Below, in pieces: positions 3,158 to 13,911 of a stretch of DNA of 35,077 nt. A model generated the notes under the pieces. That model saw only the letters and a program-made list of their open reading frames with translations. It was not told where the DNA came from and searched no databases. The position numbers and the translations under genes were made by a program. This DNA is from Planctomycetota bacterium (GTDB lineage: Bacteria > Planctomycetota > Planctomycetia > Pirellulales > UBA1268), in the NCBI GenBank assembly GCA_018970605.1, contig JAGWWA010000018.1, positions 1 to 35,077 on the forward strand. Direction: 5' to 3'. Every line of letters starts with the position of its first letter. Positions within the stretch are counted from its first letter, which is position 1.

Positions 3158-4924
3158 TCAGCGTCGGGCTGGCGCCAGCGCCGGCTCGGCCGCCAGCGTT
3201 GGCTCGGCCGCCAGCCGCGCCGGCGGCTCGTCATCCCTGGGGCCCAGCAGCAGCATGTGCCGCGCGGATGGGAAGCTTGTCGCAGTCCGCAGCACGCCAT
3301 AGTCCGGTGGCAGCGCCGCCGTCACCTGCTTTTCGAAGCGGGCATCGACCACAAGGTGCGCTCGCGGGTTTTCGGCGATGAAGGCGGCCACGTCTCCCGG
3401 TTCGGCGAGTTCTTCCACCGCGCCGCACGTCGTGATGCGGCCCGCGTAGAAGGCCACGCTCGCCGGTGCCCTGAGCGTCGCGATCGGCACGGCCGCATCG
3501 TGTCGGTGTCGCAGACCGGCGACGAGATCCCGGGTACCGGCTACGTGGCCGACGGCCGATGGTCCGGTGGCGAACAGGAGCGCCACCGTGCCGCAGGCCG
3601 TCGCCGCCCAGGCGGAGGTCGCGGCAATCCGCGACGAAAGCGACTGGCAGGCCCAGGCCGCGGCGGCGCCGGCGATCGGCACGAGTCCGATCAGGCCGAG
3701 CCACTCGGCACCGGGGGCGATGCGATGCGTCACGATCGGCAAGCCGATCGCCATGGCGACGCCCGAGATACCGAGCAGCATCCACGCCACCCGCATCCAG
3801 CGGTCGGTCGTCGCCGCCGGCCGGCGGATCCACTCCGCCACGAAATGCCCGACGGCCATGGCGATCGCCGGGTAGGCCGGCCAGACATAGCCAGGCAGCT
3901 TCGTGCCCGAGAGAGACAACGGCAGCACCCAGGCGGCGATCCAGCACACCGCCAACCGCATGCCGACCGCGTCGCGGGTCGCCCGCGCGGCGTGCCCGGC
4001 GACCAGTGCCGAGGCCATCGACCACGGGAACGTGCCGAGCAGGATGACGAGGGGGAAGTAGAGCAACGGTGATCCGGAATGACCCTCCATCGGCGCGGCG
4101 AAGCGGCCGACGTTGTGCACCAGGAGGAATCCCCGCAGCCATTCGCCATCGGTTCTCGCCGTGACCGCCCCATACCAGGGAGCTGCGACCACGAATGCGG
4201 AGGCACACACGAGGAGCGGCTTGATCGCGTGGATGGCCGTGCAGCTCGTCGAGGCGAGCCGCCCAGCGAGCGGGCCGATTCGACCCGGGTCGAGCCAGGC
4301 CTGCCACCAGCAGAACGCGCCGAGGCCCGCGAGCGGACCCAGCAGGCCGATCGGTCCTTTGGCGAGCATGGCGAGTCCGCAGGCCGCCCCGACGCAGGCC
4401 GCCGTGGCCGGAGAGAGGGCGATGGGGCCGTCCCGCCAGCCGCGGCCATCGTTCGTGGGGTGGCACGTCCCGCGGACGAACATCCAGAGGGACAGCGTGG
4501 TGCAGAACACGAGCGCCGCATCGGGCGTGGCGGCCCTCCCGCCCACTGCCGTCCACAGGCAGGTGGCCATGACGATGCCGGCCCAGAGCCCGACGTCCGG
4601 CCGGAAGACCCGTCCGGCGATCAGGCCCGTCAGCAGGCAGGTGCCGATCGTGAGCACGGCCGATGCGAGACGGGCCCCGGTCTCGTTCACGCCGGCGACG
4701 GCAAAGCCGGCGAGCTGCAGCCAGTTCACGAGCGCCGGCTTCTCCACCCGCAGGCGGCCGTTGAGGGTGGGAACGATCCAGTCACCACTGGCGTGCATCG
4801 CGAGGCTGCAGGCCGCGTTTCGTGGCTCGTCGTCGTCCCAGAGCGGGGCGCCGCCGAGGTTGGGCAGCAGCACGATCGCCGCCAGAGCCGCGATGGCCAG
4901 GCCGGATGAGCGTGTGATCGGCAT
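3158..4924 (-). CDS. ArnT/PMT-like family 39 glycosyltransferase (second paralogue)
   Basis: This 588-residue membrane protein is colinear with the neighbouring GT39 protein: first hydrophobic segment at about 8-24, acidic loop PLWDDDEPRN (D30-D31-D32-E33), then GDWIVPTLNGRLRVEKPALVNW. The pair therefore arose by duplication or shares a close ancestor. The gene begins at the ATG at 4924. The open frame continues far upstream, but only as antisense to gyrA and ugd, so that extension is rejected. No strong Shine-Dalgarno is visible before the ATG. The C-terminal tail contains a small internal repeat (LAAEPTLAAEPALA), encoded by a matching DNA repeat near 3175-3215. As first gene of the minus-strand cluster it probably carries the operon promoter (4991-5020). 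Donor and acceptor are unknown. Confidence 0.87.
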   Translation of the reverse strand: MPITRSSGLAIAALAAIVLLPNLGGAPLWDDDEPRNAACSLAMHASGDWIVPTLNGRLRVEKPALVNWLQLAGFAVAGVNETGARLASAVLTIGTCLLTGLIAGRVFRPDVGLWAGIVMATCLWTAVGGRAATPDAALVFCTTLSLWMFVRGTCHPTNDGRGWRDGPIALSPATAACVGAACGLAMLAKGPIGLLGPLAGLGAFCWWQAWLDPGRIGPLAGRLASTSCTAIHAIKPLLVCASAFVVAAPWYGAVTARTDGEWLRGFLLVHNVGRFAAPMEGHSGSPLLYFPLVILLGTFPWSMASALVAGHAARATRDAVGMRLAVCWIAAWVLPLSLSGTKLPGYVWPAYPAIAMAVGHFVAEWIRRPAATTDRWMRVAWMLLGISGVAMAIGLPIVTHRIAPGAEWLGLIGLVPIAGAAAAWACQSLSSRIAATSAWAATACGTVALLFATGPSAVGHVAGTRDLVAGLRHRHDAAVPIATLRAPASVAFYAGRITTCGAVEELAEPGDVAAFIAENPRAHLVVDARFEKQVTAALPPDYGVLRTATSFPSARHMLLLGPRDDEPPARLAAEPTLAAEPALAPARR

Positions 4925-4990
4925 GACAGGGGCCCGATGGAGGTGGCGGCCGGCCGCGAAGACGGCCCCCCGGCGGATTGCGGGGGCGGG

Positions 4991-5020
4991 AGAGTAGGTG
5001 CCGGAGCGGGCGCGGGTCAA
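4991..5020 (-). promoter_or_regulatory. Predicted sigma-70 promoter for the glycosyltransferase cluster
   Basis: On the minus strand, TTGACC (5020-5015) and TACTCT (4996-4991) are separated by 18 nt and lie about 67 nt upstream of the first GT39 start codon. It sits back to back with the predicted gyrA promoter. Seen by eye only. Confidence 0.45.
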
Positions 5021-5070
5021 GCCGTCACGAAGAGAGCAAAAGCGGGCGAATTCTCCGCATTTCCAGCCGG

Positions 5071-5098
5071 TTGACCGACCCCGGGGGACGGGTATGTT
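5071..5098 (+). promoter_or_regulatory. Predicted sigma-70 promoter for gyrA
   Basis: TTGACC (5071-5076) and TATGTT (5093-5098) are separated by 16 nt. A transcript from here would have a leader of about 60 nt before the gyrA TTG start. The 240-bp divergent region 4925-5164 shows nothing else that I can support. Confidence 0.45.
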
Positions 5099-5164
5099 CA
5101 AGCATCGCCGCAGGGGCCATCTGAATGGCCGACGCGGGTCCGCACGCGGCCGGAGGCCGAATAG

Positions 5165-7912
5165 TTGGCAGACGAACAGAACCCCCCGGCAGACGGTGAC
5201 GAGAGCCCCGACACGCGACCCGAGCAAGACGGACTGCGCGACATTTCCGGCGGTCGGCTCATCGAACTCCCGATCGAGCAGGAGCTCAAGGACAGCTACC
5301 TCACCTACGCGATGAGCGTGATCGTGAGCCGGGCCCTGCCCGACGTTCGCGACGGGCTCAAGCCCTCGCAGCGGCGGATTCTGGTCGCGATGAACGACCT
5401 CAACCTCTCGCCGGGCGCCTCCCGGGTGAAGTGCGCCAAGATCTCCGGCGACACCAGCGGCAACTACCACCCGCACGGCGAGAGCGTGATCTATCCGACG
5501 CTCGTCCGCATGGCCCAGGAATGGAACATGCGGCACGTGCTCATCGACAAGCAGGGCAACTTCGGTTCGATCGCGGGCCTGCCCGCCGCCGCCATGCGAT
5601 ACACGGAGGCGCGGCTCTCGCCGATCGCGGCGATGATGCTCGACGATCTCGACCTCGACACGGTCGACTACGTGCCGAGCTACGACGAGCGAAACACCGA
5701 GCCGGTCGTGCTGCCGAGCCGGTTTCCCAACCTGCTCGTCAACGGCGCCGGCGGCATCGCGGTCGGCATGGCCACGAGCATCCCGCCCCACAACCTCGCC
5801 GAGGTCTGCCGGGCCCTCGTCGCCCTGATCGACAATCCCGCCGTGTCGATGGGCGAGCTGCTGCAGATCGTGCCCGGCCCCGACTTCCCGACCGGCGGCA
5901 TCGTGATGGGCCGTGAGGCCCTCGTTCGCGGTTACATGACCGGCCGCTCCACGATCACGCTCCGGGCTCGGGCCCACGTGGAGGAGTTCGGCAAGAACCG
6001 TCACCGGATCGTGGTCACGGAGATTCCCTACCAGCAGACGCGCGACGCGATCGAGGAGAAGATCGCGGAACTCGTCAACGACGACCGCATCAAGGGAATT
6101 TCCGCAATCCGCAACGAGAGCGACCTCAAGGAGCCGGTGCGGCTGATCCTGGAGCTCAAGCGGGACGCCGACCCCGACGTCGTCCTCAACCAGCTTTACC
6201 AGTTCTCGCCGCTGCAGACGTCGTTCTCGCTGATCTTCCTGGCGCTCGTCGACGGCAAGCCGCGGATCCTTTCCTTCAAGAACATGCTGGAGGAGTTCCT
6301 CCGGCACCGCTCGGCGGTCATCCGCCGCCGGACGCAGCACCTTCTCGCCCGGGCCCGCAGCCGCAAGCACACCCTCGAGGGGCTGCTCGTGGCGCTGGCG
6401 AACATCGACGAGGTGATTCGCATCATCCGCTCGTCGAAGTCGCAGGCGGAGGCCAAGGAGCGGCTCTGTCAGCTGCAGGCGCCGGCGGCGCTGCTCGAGC
6501 GGGCGCTTGGGTCCGACGGCTTCGCCATCCTCCAGGAGGAGCGGGGCGTCGCGGAGACCTACGGGCTCTCGCCGGTCCAGGCCGACGCCATCCTGCGGCT
6601 CACCCTCGGCCAGCTCGTGAACCTCGAGCAGGAAAAGCTCGGCGGCGAGCATCGGGAGCTTCTCGCCAAGATCGGCGAGTTCCGCCGGATCCTCTCCAGC
6701 GAGGCCAACATCAAGGCCCTCATCCGCACGGAACTCACCGAGCTTGAAGCCAAGCACGGCGACGAGCGGCGGACGGAGATCAGCGGCGAGGCGGGTGACA
6801 TCCGCGACATGGCGGAACTGATCACCGAGGCGACGATGGTGGTCACGATCACCCGCTCCGGGTACGTGAAGCGGACGGCCGCCGACGTCTACCGGGCCCA
6901 GCGACGCGGCGGCAAGGGGCTCACCGGCGCGCGGACCGACGAGGAGGACCCGATCGAGCATCTGTTCGTGGCCAGCACCCACGACTGGCTGCTGGTCTTC
7001 ACGACGCTCGGGAAGGTGTTTTCGATGCGGGTCTTCGAACTGCCGGAGCTGGCGCGCGATGCCAAGGGGCGGGCGCTCGTGAACCTGCTGGAGTTCGAGC
7101 AGGGCGAGAAGGTGGCCGACTGCCGTGCGGTGGGCGGCTTCGAGGACCCCAACCAGTTCCTGATGCTCGCCACCCGCAGCGGCGTGGTGAAGAAGACCGC
7201 CCTGGAGCAGTATCGTCGTCGGCGGACGAAGGGGCTGATCGCGGTCAAGCTCCGCGACGGCGACGAGCTCGTGGATGCCGTGATCACGAAGCCCGGCGAC
7301 GAGCTGGTCCTGTCGACCGCGAAGGGCATGGCGATCCGCTTCCCCGAGTCGGATGCGAGGCCCATGGGCCGCGACACGAGCGGGGTTCGCGGCATCAAGC
7401 TCGGTGCCGGTGACCGGCTCGTCGGCATGGTGGTGGCGGATCCCGACGCCACGCTGCTCACGGTCTGCGAGAACGGGTACGGAAAGCGGACGCCGTTCGG
7501 CGCCGGCACGCCGGTGTCGGGGCCCGCGCCCGGCGAAGATGGCGACGAGGCCGCCGTCGAGCCGGAAGCCGGCGAGACCGCCGGCGACGAGGCCGAAGGG
7601 GATGCGAGTTCGAGCGGGGCGCGGTATCGCACCCAGCGTCGTGGCGGCAAGGGCATCCGTGACATCAAGGCGACCGCCCGCAACGGCTCGGTCGTTTCGA
7701 TCGTCTCCGTGCGCGACGACGACCAGGTGCTGATGATGACCGCCCGCGGCAAGATTCAGCGGGTGAACGTGCGTGAGATCCGTCCCATGGGCCGCAACAC
7801 CCAGGGCGTGCGGATCATGCGGGTTGACGACGGCGACGCGCTGGCGGCCGTGGTGCCCGTGCCGCCGAGCGAGCAGGAAGAGGCCGACGCCCCGCCGCCG
7901 GCCGATGCCTGA
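5165..7912 (+). CDS. gyrA: DNA gyrase subunit A
   Basis: This 915-residue protein is the breakage-reunion subunit of type IIA topoisomerase. The start is TTG at 5165, supported by GGAGG ending 8 nt upstream. The winged-helix region contains the quinolone-region equivalent [11 protein letters not shown] (102-112) and the catalytic tyrosine in [10 protein letters not shown] (Y146). GyrA rather than ParC identity is supported by GyrA boxes QRRGGKG in the C-terminal domain, but there are two: at 579-585 and 824-830. Between them, at about residues 779-819, lies an acidic Gly/Glu/Ala-rich insertion, and the protein ends in another acidic tail. The position matching E. coli Asp87 is Pro111, while Ser83 is kept as Ser107. 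gyrB is not in the window. The ugd gene follows after 45 nt, so co-transcription is possible. Confidence 0.95.
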
Positions 7913-7957
7913 AACGGCCGCAGCTTTTTGATCAGTCCCGGAACGAAGGGTCATGCC

Positions 7958-9265
7958 ATGAAGATCGCGGTCGTCGGAACCGGCTACGTGGGGTTGGTGA
8001 CGGGCACCTGTTTTGCCGACAGCGGCAACTCCGTCACCTGTCTCGACATCAACGCCGACAAGATCGCGCGGCTCAATCGCGGTGAGATCCCGATCTACGA
8101 GCCCGGGCTCGAGGAACTCGTGCAGCGGAACGCCAAGGCCGGCCGGCTGCGGTTCACCACCGACACGGCCGAGGCGATCGGCGGCGCGGAAGTGGTGTTT
8201 CTGGCGGTCGGCACGCCCCCTGCCGCCGACGGTTCGGCCGATCTGTCGGCGCTCTGGAAGGTCGTCGAGTCGATCGGGCCGCATCTCGACCCCCATGCCG
8301 TCGTCGTGACCAAGAGCACGGTGCCGGTGGGGACGTGTGCGGGCATCGAGCGGCGGTTGAAGGCGGCGCTCGGCCGCGACTGCCGCGTCGCCAGCAACCC
8401 GGAGTTTCTCAAGGAAGGGGCGGCGATCGAGGACTTCCAGAAGCCCGATCGCGTCGTCGTCGGCGTGCGTTCGCCCGACGTGGGCGAGATCCTGAAGACG
8501 CTCTACGCCCCCTTCCTGCGCACCGAAAACCCGTTCCTCGCGATGTCGCCCGAGAGTTCGGAGATGACGAAGTACGTGGCCAACGCCCTGCTCGCCACGA
8601 AGATCAGCTTCATCAACGAGGTGGCGAACCTCTGCGAGCGGATGGAGGCCGACATCGACGACGTCCGTCGCGGCATCGGCCACGACAGCCGGATCGGATT
8701 CGCGTTTCTGTTTCCGGGGGCGGGCTACGGTGGCAGCTGCTTCCCGAAGGACGTGCAGGCGCTGGCGTCGATGGCCCGCAGCCAGGGACTCAGCCCGCGG
8801 ATCCTGGCGGCTGTCCACGAGACGAATCTCGCCCAGAAGCAGGTGCTCGGCGAGAAGATCGACGCCCACTTCGGCGGCGACCTCGCGGGGAAGAAGATCG
8901 CCGTGTGGGGGTTGGCGTTCAAGCCGCGGACCGATGACGTCCGTGACGCCCCGGCGATCGACCTGATCGAGCGGCTCCTGGCAGGTGGCGCGACGGTGAG
9001 CGTGTACGACCCCGAGGCGATGGACAACGTCAGGGCGATCTACGGCAGCCGGCTCACCTACGCGGACGGAAGCCTCGAGGCGATCGACGGCGCCGACTGT
9101 TTGGCGATCGTGACGGAGTGGGGCGACTTCCGCAGGCCCGACTTCGATGCGATGGCCTCGAGGATGCGGGCGAAGGTGATCTTCGACGGCCGCAACCTCT
9201 ACTCGCCTCGCGAGATGAAGGGCCGCGGCTTCGCCTACCACGCCATCGGGAAGGCGCCGGTCTGA
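7958..9265 (+). CDS. ugd: UDP-glucose 6-dehydrogenase (UDP-sugar dehydrogenase family)
   Basis: This 435-residue protein is predicted to oxidise UDP-glucose to UDP-glucuronate with two NAD, supplying precursors for surface polysaccharide. The N-terminal Rossmann motif GTGYVG occupies residues 7-12. [11 protein letters not shown] and the active-site motif [10 protein letters not shown] (catalytic Cys261) are intact, and the length is typical of the family. I chose ATG 7958 because AAGGG lies 7 nt upstream and MKIAVVG is the usual beginning; an in-frame start 30 nt upstream adds ten residues unlike the family. Related UDP-ManNAc dehydrogenases share these motifs, so substrate identity is probable rather than certain. 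The product could feed the nearby glycosyltransferase cluster (inference). The stop codon opens a 13-bp sequence identical to that at the end of the GT2 gene. Confidence 0.92.
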
Positions 9266-9600: not shown

Positions 9601-9645
9601 AGCCGACTGGCCGTCAGTCCCGTGAGGGGGATCCTTCACGGCGGT

Positions 9646-9674
9646 TTGACACGCCGGGTGGGGCAGGGTTCAAT
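9646..9674 (+). promoter_or_regulatory. Predicted sigma-70 promoter for hppA
   Basis: A perfect TTGACA (9646-9651) is followed after 17 nt by TTCAAT (9669-9674, 4 of 6 consensus positions). It lies about 100 nt before the chosen hppA start and just past the repeat element, so the repeat did not disrupt it. Confidence 0.5.
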
Positions 9675-9771
9675 CTTCGCGCATGGGAACGTTCCAGGCG
9701 ATCCGTCCCTGCGGTCGCCGTCCAGGCCGAACCCCGGCCTCATTCCTCTCTTATTCCGGAGCGTCTTGATC

Positions 9772-12384
<2,613 letters not shown>

Positions 12385-12456
12385 GCGGGTCGATCGCGGG
12401 TCGGGTCAGTCGGTCCGGGCGTTTGGTTGGCGAACTCGCGAGCAGGGCCCCGCGGC

Positions 12457-12726
12457 CGGCGGGAGACATGCTCGGACCTGGCGGCATTTGTGATTTCTAG
12501 GCTCTGACGGAATGTCGGAGTCTTGTGTCCACACATGTCACCAGGTCCTGTGCGTGCCCCCCGACCGACCGCTCCTCCGTGTGCGGTGACGAACGGGCCA
12601 GCAGTTTCGGCGGAGTGGGTCGGGGGAACGCGCAGGAGACGGTGACACTTGCGGACATTGGACTTGGCTCTACCGTTGGGGCATCGAACTCGCAAGTGCC
12701 GCCGGCTCCGAGCATTTCACCGCCCG
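12457..12726 (+). other. Long imperfect inverted repeat, candidate structured RNA between hppA and tgt
   Basis: The gap 12385-12780 has no gene but contains one fold-back structure. Base i pairs with base 25183-i from about 12457/12726 inward to 12561/12622, and the last inner helix (12575-12579 with 12611-12615) encloses a loop of about 31 nt. Runs include 12468-12475 with 12708-12715, 12478-12493 with 12690-12705, 12501-12510 with 12673-12682, and 12546-12555 with 12628-12637. I counted 11 G-T pairs and only 3 A-C oppositions between the arms. A plus-strand RNA tolerates G-U, so this asymmetry suggests a maintained RNA fold rather than decaying DNA repeats. The function is unknown; a fold-back mobile element is the alternative. 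Confidence 0.7.
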
Positions 12727-12780
12727 CTCCGAATGGGCTCCTGCATCCCCTGAGCCGATTCCCTCGATTCTGACCCCACG

Positions 12781-13911
12781 ATGCAACCCGGATTCGCATT
12801 CGAGATCGCGGCGACGGACGGTTCGGCGCGGGCGGGAACGCTCACGACGCCGCACGGCAGCGTGCCCACGCCCCTGTTCATGCCGGTGGCCACGCTCGCC
12901 AGCGTGAAGGGCGTCGATATCGGCCGCGTTCGCGAGACGGGGGCCGGCATGGTGCTCTCCAATGCCTACCACCTCCACCTGCGGCCCGGCGAGGAGCTGG
13001 TCGAGCAGGCGGGGGGCGTGGCGGCGTTCATGGGATGGAACGGTCCCACGCTCACCGACTCCGGCGGCTTTCAGGTCTTCAGCCTTGCACGGCAGGTGAG
13101 GGTCACCGAGGCCGGCGCCTTTTTTCGGTCGCACATCGACGGCCGTGCCGTGGAGTTCACGCCCGAGAACTCGATGCGGATCCAGGAGCGGATCGGCGCG
13201 GATGTCGCCATGCAGATGGATCACGTCGTCGCCCTGCCTGCCGAGCGGTCGGTGGTCGAGGACGCGATGCGGCGGTCGCTCCGCTGGGCCGAACGGTGTC
13301 GGGCGGCGCACAGGCGATCGGATCAGGCACTCTTCGGGATCGTGCAGGGCGGCCTGGATCCGGAACTCCGGCAGGAGAGCGCCGAGGGGCTGAGGGCGCT
13401 CGGGTTTCCCGGCTATGCCGTCGGCGGCTTGTCGGTGGGGGAGGGGCCCGAGGCGATGGTGGCGGCGCTGCATGCGACCATGCCCCACCTCCCTGCGAAT
13501 CGTCCGCGCTACCTCATGGGGGTTGGCCAGCCGGACGACATCATGGCGGCCGTCGCCGCCGGCATCGACATGTTCGACTGTGTGCTGCCCACGCGGTGCG
13601 GCCGCAACTCGCTGGTCTACACGTTCGCCGGGCAGGTGCGGCTGCGGAACGCCAGGCATGCGGCGGACGAGCGGCCGCTCGAGGAAGGCTGCCCCTGCAT
13701 CGCCTGTCGGCACGGTCGGCGGTATCTTCGGCACCTGTTCCTGGCGGGTGAGATGCTGGGGCCGGTGCTGGCGTCGATCCACAACCTCACCTTCTATCAG
13801 CGGCTCGTTGCCAGGCTGCGAGACGCGATCGTGGCAGGCTCGCTTCCGACCGTGGTGGCGGAACTCCGCCGGGGCATGGCCGCCGGGGATGACCGCGGCA
13901 CCGGCTCCTGA
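12781..13911 (+). CDS. tgt: tRNA-guanine transglycosylase (queuine/preQ1 tRNA-ribosyltransferase)
   Basis: This 376-residue enzyme exchanges guanine-34 of GUN-anticodon tRNAs for a 7-deazaguanine base. The general acid/base and nucleophile motifs are present: [12 protein letters not shown] (Asp93) and [10 protein letters not shown] (Asp266). GIVQGG (187-191) and the zinc ligands Cys304, Cys306, Cys309 and His335 are intact. The substrate-pocket motif is MQMDHVV (144-150), so the residue matching bacterial Cys158 (Z. mobilis numbering) is Val149, as in eukaryotic and chlamydial enzymes that take queuine, while Val219 keeps the bacterial state at position 233. It begins the tgt-yajC-secDF series common in bacteria. 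No strong Shine-Dalgarno precedes the ATG. The start is favoured because nothing upstream of it looks coding. Confidence 0.95.

Follow-up and report, generated by a model that had tools for sequence, protein, structure and literature searches.

The long fold-back in the hppA-tgt spacer of an uncultured planctomycete is formed by two facing copies of a dispersed hairpin repeat

A contig of 35,077 nt from a Planctomycetota bacterium (GenBank accession number JAGWWA010000018.1, assembly GCA_018970605.1), here analysed over its whole length and called the window, was found to carry a 270-nt fold-back between the genes hppA and tgt. Two copies of a dispersed repeat face each other there and produce this fold-back as a by-product, and it appears from the comparison of many copies that evolution kept the short hairpin formed by a single copy, not the long fold-back. 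Probably the two opposite copies were acquired independently, and belong to a non-coding, non-autonomous palindromic repeat that resembles the REP and MITE elements.

The fold-back had been noticed in a sequence-only reading of the window, in which its arms were said to pair base i with base 25183-i over more than 100 positions. A repeat search recovered inverted arms of 105 nt at 12457-12561 and 12622-12726, 70% complementary and 60 nt apart, and in the register i + j = 25183 there were 74 Watson-Crick pairs; the 11 G-T and 3 A-C oppositions claimed earlier were exact on recount. As also claimed, the element lies in no gene, beyond the stop of hppA and before tgt (Table 1). The minimum free energy predicted for the RNA 12447-12736 was -180.5 kcal/mol, compared with a mean of -123.0 for shuffled sequences (z -10.1; 0 of 200 shuffles as good). 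Folding of both strands of 12457-12726, a check that the first reading had proposed, gave -173.9 for the plus strand versus -145.9 for the minus strand, the plus strand being the more stable. The pairing in the window is real and far beyond chance. No curated Rfam covariance model matched the region at its gathering score, in agreement with the view that it belongs to no recognised structured RNA class; permissive Rfam thresholds gave only chance-level matches for the repeat, and the plasmid and phage collections searched gave none.

Table 1 Features of the window discussed in the text.
Feature	Coordinates	Strand	Remarks
gyrA/parC-type gene	5165-7912		strand opposite to the 2027-aa minus frame
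UDP-glucose dehydrogenase-type gene	7928-9265		strand opposite to the 2027-aa minus frame
hppA, proton-pumping pyrophosphatase	9622-12384	+	Pfam PF03030 (H_PPase); flanking gene; start codon uncertain
Hairpin repeat, left copy	12454-12572	-	model R1, 106.1 bits
Long fold-back of the sequence-only reading	12457-12726	.	formed by the two facing copies
Spacer separating the facing copies	12573-12610	.	from the copy coordinates
Hairpin repeat, right copy	12611-12729	+	model R1, 109.5 bits
tgt, queuine tRNA-ribosyltransferase	12781-13911	+	Pfam PF01702 (TGT); flanking gene

Two other features of the window were recorded. A 2027-aa open frame on the minus strand (3158-9241) is largely spurious, because gyrA/parC-type and UDP-glucose dehydrogenase-type genes occupy the opposite strand, and a PMT_2 domain is present in its last part only. 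A second dispersed repeat of about 135 nt, GGGGCTGCCCATGCCC...GGGCACGGGCAGCCCCTCGC, is located at both contig ends (10-142 and 34685-34818); it is 92% identical to a copy elsewhere, has dozens of copies in congeners and probably broke the assembly at the ends of the window, which is the whole contig.

Each arm of the fold-back is itself a palindrome, and at many places in the genome a good match to one arm is therefore accompanied by a poorer match to the other on the opposite strand; from these matches it follows that the window holds two opposite copies of a palindromic repeat of about 120 nt. With the fold-back region as query, 20 matches including itself were obtained in the window's own genome (G000), and 25 with a consensus-like copy; about 16 of the copies in this genome are good, the others being fragments. 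A covariance model, R1, was built from 21 copies, with E-values from a short calibration. Among the genomes compared, which are draft MAGs, R1 matched 18 of 22 in the genus, G017 having the most matches (up to 105), and 28 of 72 in the family, distributed over 4 of 12 genera; the loosest of these counts also take in weak matches to the reverse strand of copies already counted. No R1 match was found in any other family among 197 genomes sampled across the order, and when a named genome collection was scanned with an exact pattern, planctomycete MAGs were hit. The family was shown to be multicopy, intergenic, patchy across species and polymorphic in its sites, and a covariance model is now available for what is apparently an undescribed repeat family of intergenic regions in uncultured planctomycetes.

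Copies inside one genome are often just 66-80% alike. In G016 many copies are 86-94% identical to the copy on contig C34 of the window's own genome, which suggests a recent spread. Half-copies, possible ends of longer elements, were located in the window's own genome. At a second locus a copy was found in G000, G005 and G016, in the opposite orientation in the latter two, and none was detected in G004, G021, G017, G010, G009 or G002; comparison of L150 (1332-1658) with L268 and L177 showed that the whole repeat-bearing insert is opposite in G000 with respect to G005 and G016, as if it had been inverted in place. Hairpin repeats at L167, L171, L177 and other loci of G016 are adjoined by a third palindrome, a short one (AGGTTTTCAACCT, contained in CACAGGTTTTCAACCTGTG), and the two form mosaic repeat clusters between genes.

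The history of the hppA-tgt site was deduced from the congeners. A facing pair is present in G000, G004 and G021, the first two being near identical at this site and thus counted as one observation. The nearest kin of the left copy is its G004 orthologue (99%), and the right copy has orthologues in G004 (97%) and G021 (85%). The left copy of G021 is only 57% identical to that of the window and closest to other G021 copies (84%), and the facing arms of G021 contain 6 G-T versus 9 A-C oppositions, with equal fold energies on both strands. Since the left copies differ and the right ones are orthologous, the facing arrangement would have arisen by separate events, or else the left copy was replaced. 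At least one copy occupies the site in five more congeners, as called by the model in four of them (G017, G008, G018 and G015) and by eye in G003; G016 and G005 have a different repeat there, while in G012 and G014 the element is missing and hardly any spacer separates the two genes.

It had been proposed that a single RNA of 270 nt is maintained at this site. Such a unit, or a long DNA fold-back specific to hppA-tgt, would agree with the recurrence of the facing pair in three genomes, with the 11:3 ratio and with the stable long fold, but it now appears extremely improbable. Neither the long pairing nor the G-U bias was maintained, because in G021 the copy on the left is from another subfamily and the arms have a ratio of 6:9; moreover, the arm identity in G021 is no higher (0.63 against 0.66), the two near-identical genomes add a single observation, and the other relatives have a single copy at the site or none.

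The 11:3 bias alone is marginal (two-sided binomial p = 0.057). In a fold-back of this kind a transition difference between the arms is seen as G-T or A-C depending on the arm that holds each base. Of the ordered copy pairs, 9 of 186 within this genome and 103 of 9378 over all copies had a G-T share of 11/14 or more, so that the window pair is in the tail of the distribution, yet not unique. Within single hairpins the weighted oppositions were G-T 40 versus A-C 11, and about 32 of the 40 came from two conserved pairs, which are G-T in the sense strand; by weight, about 8 G-T to 11 A-C were left outside these pairs. The idea that an overall G-U excess points to RNA was rejected, as the excess is confined to the two conserved pairs and vanishes elsewhere. 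A G-U bias seen in one inverted repeat can be misleading if that repeat consists of two facing copies of a dispersed element.

The unit is about 120 nt long, or about 155-200 nt with the outer ends present in one subfamily. Each copy was shown to be capable of forming a hairpin, in which the lower stem is GC-rich and conserved, the inner stem varies and covaries, the loop is large and some unpaired residues are conserved. In 103 copies, aligned by fitting to the covariance model and counted as independent in spite of their phylogenetic relatedness, 95.5% of cells were paired versus 82.9% in shuffles, changes on both sides occurred in 16 of 24 pairs versus 9.4, and the covariation score was 0.342 versus 0.118. 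Slid registers were paired at 34-45% and the signal was destroyed, and a first alignment, unfitted to the model, had compensatory changes in 11 of 29 pairs. Covariation was thus found within single hairpins. Of the proposal of a maintained structured element, the part that holds is a fold kept by compensatory change; its unit is the single-copy hairpin of about 120 nt and not the 270-nt fold-back.

Covariation inside a palindrome can arise without selection by arm-to-arm templated repair, which is an established source of paired changes. The repeat might accordingly be read as a decaying palindrome with no current function or mobility, the paired changes of which came from repair of the quasi-palindrome arms, and the divergence of copies within one genome is compatible with this. 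However, the unpaired and asymmetric residues C22, G25, C26, A27, G138, A139 and A142 are 94-100% conserved across subfamilies, and repair would have erased them; as these and the lower stem are unchanged, the conserved mismatches seem to argue against simple palindrome repair towards perfection. In addition, G016 and G005 hold many copies near one another's type, and decay of this kind is considered very unlikely.

All copies but one (102 of 103) were located between predicted genes. Those with genes called on both sides were convergent (26), tandem (57) or divergent (6), while control gaps of at least 100 nt were convergent in 11 cases and divergent in 23 (Fisher p 7e-5), as judged with a simple home-made codon-usage caller and a small control set. 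Only 25 of the 57 tandem copies were in the sense orientation; for this lack of sense bias a strand-specific RNA is unsupported, and the G-U bias, carried by two conserved pairs, does not serve as its sign. An intrinsic terminator was rejected, as the hairpin is not followed by a run of T in the flanks seen.

A role in stabilising or ending mRNA has been proposed for some REPs. The repeat could likewise be a 3' untranslated hairpin serving the host, co-transcribed with the upstream gene, the mRNA of which it would stabilise or end, and with a fold kept for that purpose. This would fit the preference for convergent and tandem over divergent contexts, the very stable folds and the sense-strand G-T of the two conserved pairs, but it was judged unlikely given the tandem copies without sense bias, the missing T-run and a patchy presence across congeners, two of which (G012 and G014) have no copy at hppA-tgt.

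A non-autonomous REP/MITE-like element is the preferred reading. Its copies would multiply with the help of a putative trans-acting enzyme recognising the single strand in its folded form, and such recognition would select for the hairpin; insertions hitting promoters would be purged, so that copies would survive mainly between convergent or tandem genes. Two divergent copies that came to face each other would then give the 270-nt fold-back and its G-U excess. In naming a recent fold-back transposon as an alternative, the earlier reading was partly right. Near-identical copies with terminal target duplications had been named as evidence against a maintained RNA: many copies do occur elsewhere, and no target-site duplication was evident in 35 copies with flanks, where boundaries are vague and other repeats adjoin.

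Y1 transposases are the proposed mobilisers of REPs. No mobiliser was found for the present repeat: of 22 congeners, 9 have Y1 transposases, and these do not track copy number, several copy-rich genomes have no Y1 match, and at 11 Y1 loci in the genus there was no repeat copy at E <= 0.01. A Y1 (RAYT-type) transposase was thus rejected as the mobiliser, being sporadic and unlinked to copies. In the window's own genome, a Y1 transposase-like ORF at L061 (contig C85) is found amid other GC-rich repeats with the recurring translated motif ASPERxRGDGRGGG, which are unrelated to the hairpin repeat. It is conceivable, though doubtful, that a recombinase so far tied to no known repeat family acts on the folded strand of a mobile hairpin, a reading that takes in the conserved unpaired bases, the freely covarying inner stem and a genome-wide presence in several planctomycete genera. 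If a mobiliser is found, the strong covariation would make recognition of the folded strand testable.

Among known systems, integron attC sites act as single-strand hairpins in which unpaired bases are conserved and the stem varies. The repeat hairpin shares these two features, a resemblance in the way of working only; its copies are scattered singly and not in cassette arrays, and its consensus has no GTTRRRY-type end boxes.

REPs are palindromes tagged GTAG or CGTC that favour convergent and tandem contexts and have G-T pairs in their stems, which was read as a sign of transcription (PMC3733652); REPINs are described in PMC3116915. The present repeat is likewise dispersed, intergenic, hairpin-forming and present in many copies, and shares the context preference and the G-T stem pairs (PMC3733652). 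Its facing dimers, too, can fold singly or as one large hairpin, and some REP families are similarly species-specific. It differs in its unit of about 120 nt versus 20-40 nt, in that its consensus (alignments A1 and A3) ends in neither GTAG nor CGTC, in that none of the Y1 transposase genes tested had a copy next to it, and in that just two independent facing pairs were found, dimers not being its usual form. As Y1 is unlinked and the REP end tags are absent, the repeat was not filed as a REP.

No parent insertion sequence and no target-site duplication of the kind expected of MITEs turned up in the searches made, and the sequence appears unrelated as far as Rfam, plasmid and phage collections were searched. 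Of the small mobile repeats of enterobacteria, RU-1 is given as 127 bp and RU-2 as 168 bp (PMC2759123), and with MITEs and such elements the repeat has in common its length, its palindromic non-coding body, its intergenic location, its many copies and the polymorphism of its sites. Like a MITE, it is a short non-coding element with terminal inverted repeats, the palindromic body being present in all copies and the outer ends of the G016 subfamily being TCGCATGTGATTCC...GGATCACGTGTGA.
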